From Fusobacteria bacterium ZRK30 (GTDB lineage Bacteria; Fusobacteriota; Fusobacteriia; Fusobacteriales; Fusobacteriaceae): a stretch of 64,000 bases of DNA. How positions within the stretch are numbered: position 1 is the first letter of the stretch; the number at the start of each line of letters is the position of its first letter. The position numbers were made by a program, and so were the translations under genes. Positions 12,601 through 13,062 of this stretch are shown piece by piece. The stretch is from the NCBI GenBank assembly GCA_024628785.1, contig CP102404.1:620001-684000 (forward strand), read 5' to 3'. The notes beneath the pieces were generated by a model. It saw only the letters and a program-made list of their open reading frames with translations. It was not told the DNA's origin and ran no database searches.

Positions 12601-13062
12601 TTAATTTCCTTTCTCTAATTTAAGAAGATATTCTTTCCTCCAAATACCAGATGCAAATCCTGTAAGTTTACCCGACTTACCTATGACTCTGTGTCAGGGA
12701 ACTATGATTGAAATTGGATTCTTTCCATTTGCACCTCCTACAGCCCTTACAGCTTTAGGATTGTTGATAGATTGAGCTTCTTCTGAATAAGAGATGGTTT
12801 TTCCATAGGGGATCTTATACATAGCTTTCCAGCATGCCCTTTGAAATTCTGTACCGCCTTTAAAATCAATATTTATGGTAAATGTAGTCCTTTTCTTTTC
12901 AAAATATTCTTCTAATTCTTTTTTACACTTAATCACTTCAGGGCTGGATATCTCCTCATTCTTTTTTTTATCTAAAAAATGAATACCGCTTATTCCATCA
13001 GTTTCCTCGGTGATCTCAATGATACCAAGAAAATCATGTTCTAAATAGATTCTTCCTTTCAA
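12601..13062 (-). CDS. ogt: O6-alkylguanine-DNA methyltransferase with in-frame TGA at the catalytic Cys (candidate selenoprotein)
   Basis: Repairs O6-alkylguanine by transferring the alkyl group to its active-site residue. Read through one TGA, the frame is 153 residues, a normal family length. It shows FQRACWKAMYKIPYGKTISY (74-92) and RAVGGANGKNP (106-116), then [22 protein letters not shown]. The family motif is PCHRVIG, so TGA (12694-12696, codon 123) replaces exactly the catalytic Cys. The frame continues intact for 30 residues to TAA at 12601. A SECIS-like hairpin begins 13 nt after the TGA. A plain nonsense mutation or sequencing error is the alternative. AGGTGTTAACTTG precedes the ATG. 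Confidence 0.75.
12662..12680 (-). promoter_or_regulatory. Putative bacterial SECIS hairpin
   Basis: On the coding strand, GUAAGU and ACUUAC form a perfect 6-bp stem around the loop CGGGUAA. The loop starts 20 nt after the UGA. This agrees with the known bacterial SECIS plan: stem-loop immediately downstream, small apical loop containing G or GU, about 16-37 nt after UGA. Its use by SelB is inferred. Confidence 0.6.

Follow-up and report, generated by a model that had tools for sequence, protein, structure and literature searches.

A predicted selenocysteine-containing O6-alkylguanine-DNA alkyltransferase in a clade of Fusobacteriaceae

An O6-alkylguanine-DNA alkyltransferase (OGT/MGMT) gene of Fusobacteria bacterium ZRK30 carries an in-frame TGA at the codon of its catalytic Cys, which raises the question of whether this codon ends the protein or is decoded as selenocysteine (Sec). 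The gene lies in a stretch of 64,000 nucleotides of contig CP102404.1 (positions 620,001 to 684,000), which was analysed as a whole and is referred to below as the window. Based on the sequence of the locus and its comparison with related genomes, the gene very probably makes a Sec-containing O6-alkylguanine-DNA alkyltransferase, with the UGA and a hairpin SECIS behind it decoding Sec.

The gene and its read-through product

The features of the locus are listed in Table 1. The OGT frame is unbroken except for one TGA, which falls exactly at the Cys position of the PCHR motif. The first-pass annotation had described this frame as intact apart from the TGA and continuing to a normal stop, and had placed a perfect stem with a 7-nt loop behind the UGA; both descriptions were confirmed, on the minus strand, which that annotation did not specify.

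Table 1. Features of the OGT locus, in positions of the window.
Feature	Position	Strand	Remarks
OGT/MGMT CDS	13062..12601	minus	153 codons plus TAA (12603-12601), in-frame TGA read as Sec
TTG start codon of the OGT gene	13062	minus	
GGAGGTG, Shine-Dalgarno-like (ribosome-binding site)	13068..13074	minus	5 nt 5' of the TTG; direct sequence reading
UGA at the catalytic Cys position	12694..12696	minus	residue 123 of the read-through protein; conserved in 7 species
SECIS-like hairpin GUAAGU-CGGGUAA-ACUUAC	12662..12680	minus	perfect 6-bp stem, 7-nt loop, G at loop position 2
Terminator-like hairpin	12535..12551	minus	3' of the OGT stop; intergenic region shared with a convergent ABC-transporter gene
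Terminator-like hairpin	13131..13155	minus	separates OGT from the zinc-ribbon gene upstream of it

When the TGA is read through, the protein matches the full Pfam domain DNA_binding_1 (PF01035; 2.7e-33, 1-80 of 81) as well as Methyltransf_1N (PF02870; 6.8e-8), and it scores 116.9 bits against the NCBIfam model ogt (TIGR00589), with a cut-off of 46.4. The two-domain form is therefore complete, with both the DNA-binding/methyl-acceptor domain and the N-terminal domain being present. An AlphaFold model of the read-through protein has a mean pLDDT of 93, and its closest match in the PDB is the OGT of M. tuberculosis. Around the Sec codon, which stands in place of the Cys, the residues Y92, R106 (the finger), N115, H124 and E150 are retained. 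These are the equivalents of human Y114, R128, N137, H146 and E172, and the UGA at residue 123 is that of C145 in human AGT. For N137, H146 and E172 of human AGT, the numbering follows PMC4150793.

Upstream of OGT lies a gene for a 46-residue zinc-ribbon protein (13154-13294, minus strand), which adjoins OGT in two close relatives as well (L019 and L020) and was not found at the other Sec-OGT loci. The terminator-like hairpin between the two genes suggests that OGT is transcribed by itself. Near these genes, on the same strand, a MORN_2-repeat protein is encoded (13636-14262) by a gene made up of about four almost identical tandem repeats of 126 bp (93% matches). Elsewhere in the window, two adjacent and closely similar genes for transporters of the GPR1/FUN34/YaaH family (acetate/succinate-type; 8841-9401 and 9595-10203, minus strand) are probably a tandem duplication.

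Conservation of the UGA and of the hairpin

TGA occupies the catalytic codon of OGT in seven species, i.e. the cultured strain Propionigenium maris DSM 9537 and six species of the window's own genus, these six being all members of the genus in which the search detected an OGT gene (there was no match in two partial genomes). All 23 other Fusobacteriaceae loci read have TGT or TGC at this codon. As the TGA is shared by seven separately assembled species, a sequencing error is for practical purposes ruled out. The sequence behind the TGA is under purifying selection and behaves like translated sequence, since its pN/pS of about 0.19 (hairpin left out) is similar to the 0.16 found before the TGA. 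In the tree, the seven Sec-OGT genes cluster together, and Cys-OGTs from a sister genus are closest to them (supports 92 and 95); the genes of the own genus and P. maris are 65-70% identical to these Cys-OGTs. The position of this one group beside Cys-OGTs favours a change from Cys to Sec in the ancestor of the seven. The selA gene is common across Fusobacteriaceae, also in genera with a Cys-type OGT. Against this background of Sec decoding, it is thus Sec-OGT that is new in one clade.

According to PMC13188914, the published bacterial SECIS model has a loop of 3-9 nt, a stem of 4-16 bp, a G in the first two loop positions, a distance of 16-37 nt from UGA to loop and an MFE of at most -7.5 kcal/mol. 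The OGT hairpin lies within this model for loop (7 nt), stem (6 bp), G position (CGGG) and spacing, the loop starting 19 nt and the stem 13 nt after the TGA. The energy limit is reached in 6 of the 7 Sec genes with the best of the 40-55 nt windows, while short windows fall short. The isolated hairpin is of moderate stability (-2.9 kcal/mol), its fold z-score is only -2, and 815 of 5000 synonymous-codon shuffles yielded an equally or more stable hairpin under the same constraints. As 16% of the shuffles do equally well, stability was dropped as evidence for a SECIS.

Conservation gives a different picture. The stem pairs at 6/6 positions in all seven Sec-OGT genes and at 1-4/6 in the Cys orthologues. 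Over the hairpin, 5 of 7 codons are synonymously invariant, whereas in the rest of the gene 7 of 68 are (p = 0.00027 by permutation). The changes in the two variable hairpin codons fall within the loop or immediately beyond the stem. The hairpin is thus conserved above protein-coding constraint: taken alone it could be due to chance, but its conservation is improbable by chance. No covariation is seen, because the stem never varies among the seven Fusobacteriaceae Sec genes. An Rfam scan of the locus returned no SECIS family and chance matches only.

Selenocysteine decoding and alternative readings

The genome carries the machinery for Sec insertion. The genes selA and selB adjoin each other and selD (C1:236-241 kb), and a tRNA-Sec with a UCA anticodon is present. 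In-frame TGA codons are found at canonical positions in selD, two grdA genes and several grdB-type genes; selD (L118, C1:239727-240638) is a predicted selenoprotein gene itself, with the motif SGGGU. Judging from these genes, UGA is evidently used for Sec in this organism. SelD, GrdA and GrdB are canonical selenoproteins of redox and selenium metabolism, unlike OGT, but all of them have the in-frame UGA in common. In the SelD and GrdB hairpins, the loop contains GG and lies 16-18 nt behind the UGA, compared to 19 nt for OGT, and the SelD loop, CGGGT, resembles the OGT loop, CGGGTAA. For the two grdA genes (L125 and L126), which are clear selenoprotein genes by homology, no good SECIS-like hairpin was found under the standard model, so the SelB of this lineage may tolerate other hairpin shapes.

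A TGA at this codon, one base away from TGT or TGC, could also be a nonsense mutation or a misread base in an ogt gene undergoing decay, and other genes of the window still use TGA as an ordinary stop. The chance of this is practically negligible, given the same TGA in separate assemblies of seven species, the purifying selection behind it, and a gene in which the active-site residues, the start, the ribosome-binding site and the stop are all intact. Alternatively, read-through or a change of the code might put another residue, e.g., Trp, at the UGA, turning the product into a PWHR protein of the ATL type that binds without repair. In ATL proteins, the catalytic Cys is indeed replaced by another residue, often Trp, and the OGT model matches the S. 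pombe ATL as well, weakly. However, of 45 long ORFs in the window, 3 end in TGA, which points to a standard code; TGG is found at this codon in 0 of the 30 Fusobacteriaceae loci read, each of which has either Cys or TGA; and the protein has the full two-domain OGT form, not the short ATL form. As the Sec machinery and the conserved SECIS-like hairpin would also be left unexplained, such a decoding is extremely improbable.

It is also conceivable that Sec is inserted into a protein that no longer serves mainly in DNA repair and acts, for instance, as a redox or electrophile sensor, bacterial selenoproteins being mostly redox proteins (PMC2398784). Such a change of role is very unlikely, as the DNA-binding domain and the arginine finger, Asn, His and Glu of the repair site are all kept, no CxxU/UxxC redox pair lies beside the Sec, and this is the sole OGT found in the genome.

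The preferred reading is therefore that of a Sec-containing repair protein, as proposed by the first-pass annotation. That annotation had named sel genes in the genome, Cys/Sec exchange among orthologues and a conserved stem as what should accompany it, and general decay of the gene in relatives as what would speak against it. Its proposal is well supported: selA, selB, selD and tRNA-Sec are all there, the orthologues divide into 7 loci with TGA and 23 with TGT/TGC, the stem is kept where TGA is, and in place of decay the relatives have an intact and constrained OGT.

Proposed function and relation to known systems

In the proposed mechanism, the ribosome would meet the UGA at codon 123, with the hairpin downstream serving as a bacterial SECIS that recruits SelB and Sec-tRNA-Sec; Sec would be inserted and translation would run on to the TAA. 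A selenolate would then replace the catalytic thiolate within the Asn-His-Glu active site, and the alkyl group would move from O6-alkylguanine in DNA to this selenolate, giving Se-alkyl-selenocysteine. The active-site nucleophile of PCHR would be present only if UGA is decoded as Sec; failing that, the product would be a polypeptide of 122 residues in which it is missing. We infer Sec insertion, alkyl-transfer activity and a single turnover for this OGT. In human AGT, the C145U variant protects E. coli from MNNG and the C145S variant does not (PMC4150793), so Sec chemistry at the catalytic position is known to work. As this engineered protein works and the active-site residues are kept, a functional alkyltransferase with a selenolate nucleophile is the most likely product.

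A second OGT was found neither in the window's genome nor in P. maris, at the sensitivity of the search used for each genome. The Sec form thus appears to carry O6-alkylguanine repair alone, and this repair should require selenium. Sec usually sits in enzymes with many turnovers, while an OGT is spent once per lesion. A costly Sec is apparently consumed for each base repaired, and the repair of mutagenic O6-alkylguanine appears to be selenium-dependent with no Cys backup detected. One idea is that Sec-OGT is not a pure suicide enzyme and that a thiol or other nucleophile dealkylates the Se-alkyl form more readily than it would S-alkyl-cysteine, making the repair recyclable. This is unlikely, but if true it would account for the retention of so expensive a residue in a protein that would otherwise act a single time. 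The Sec clade, a group of marine-type Fusobacteria (the own genus and P. maris), forms with its Cys sister genus a natural pairing of closely related orthologues in which to ask why Sec is used in a suicide enzyme and whether turnover is possible.

Outside Fusobacteriaceae, a pattern search covered 398 genomes from the Bacillota-type phylum to which locus L096 (titled uncultured Clostridia bacterium) belongs. Three OGTs whose catalytic codon is TGA were retrieved, L130, L131 (1510) and L132, each with a GC-rich 7-bp hairpin whose loop starts with GG 18 nt after the TGA. The genomes of L131 and L132 (G408 and G447) have a tRNA-Sec. L130 as a confirmed Sec case is weakened, the sole tRNA-Sec candidate of its genome (G435) being a tRNA-Ser according to ARAGORN. 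The loci L127-L129, 3 of the 6 Bacillota pattern matches, were set aside as chance. A quick tree puts the Sec-OGTs of Fusobacteriaceae and Bacillota far apart; a constraint to a single Sec-OGT clade is not rejected by the AU test (p-AU 0.41), and independent origins are therefore not claimed. No real Sec-OGT was found in viral contigs, and no TGA occurred among the approximately 155 matches listed for a sample of 297 genomes from the phylum to which a Desulfobacterales MAG belongs. In a plasmid search, the best OGT matches were about 60% identical and covered mostly the C-terminal part.

Sec-OGT is already known as a category and is barely studied. Two cases belong to the same family and share the in-frame UGA and bacterial Sec decoding with the Fusobacteriaceae OGT, namely a GOS marine read and ABB14497.1, a Carboxydothermus protein. 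The former is the single read from which a Sec-containing methylated-DNA-protein-cysteine methyltransferase (COG0350/PF01035) was predicted (PMC2398784), and ABB14497.1 is listed as a predicted Sec methylated-DNA-protein-cysteine methyltransferase (PMC9312934 and PMC13188914). An earlier list of C. hydrogenoformans selenoproteins does not include a Sec methyltransferase (PMC1794560), and Fusobacteria are not mentioned in the reviews PMC9312934 and PMC13188914. A search of the open-licence literature returned no experimental study of a natural Sec-OGT, which does not prove that there is none.

Compared to these single and isolated cases, for which the accessible text gives neither an alignment nor the position of the Sec, the Fusobacteriaceae genes come from seven species that share Sec, hairpin and machinery. 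Cys-type OGTs such as E. coli Ada and Ogt, M. tuberculosis OGT and human AGT/MGMT have the same fold, active-site residues and full-length family match; their nucleophile is encoded by TGY, whereas that of the Fusobacteriaceae Sec-OGT would be encoded by UGA, with a hairpin in the codons that follow. The engineered Sec145 human AGT (PMC4150793) is artificial, with Sec inserted at UAG via EF-Tu and without a SECIS, while the Fusobacteriaceae genes represent a natural UGA/SECIS arrangement. With Sec, Asn137 of the human enzyme is dispensable (PMC4150793), but the natural Sec-OGTs all keep this Asn (N115), so Sec is not simply making up for a lost Asn. What is new compared to all of these is a Fusobacteriota clade with Sec-OGT, a conserved SECIS-like hairpin and an apparent absence of a Cys backup.
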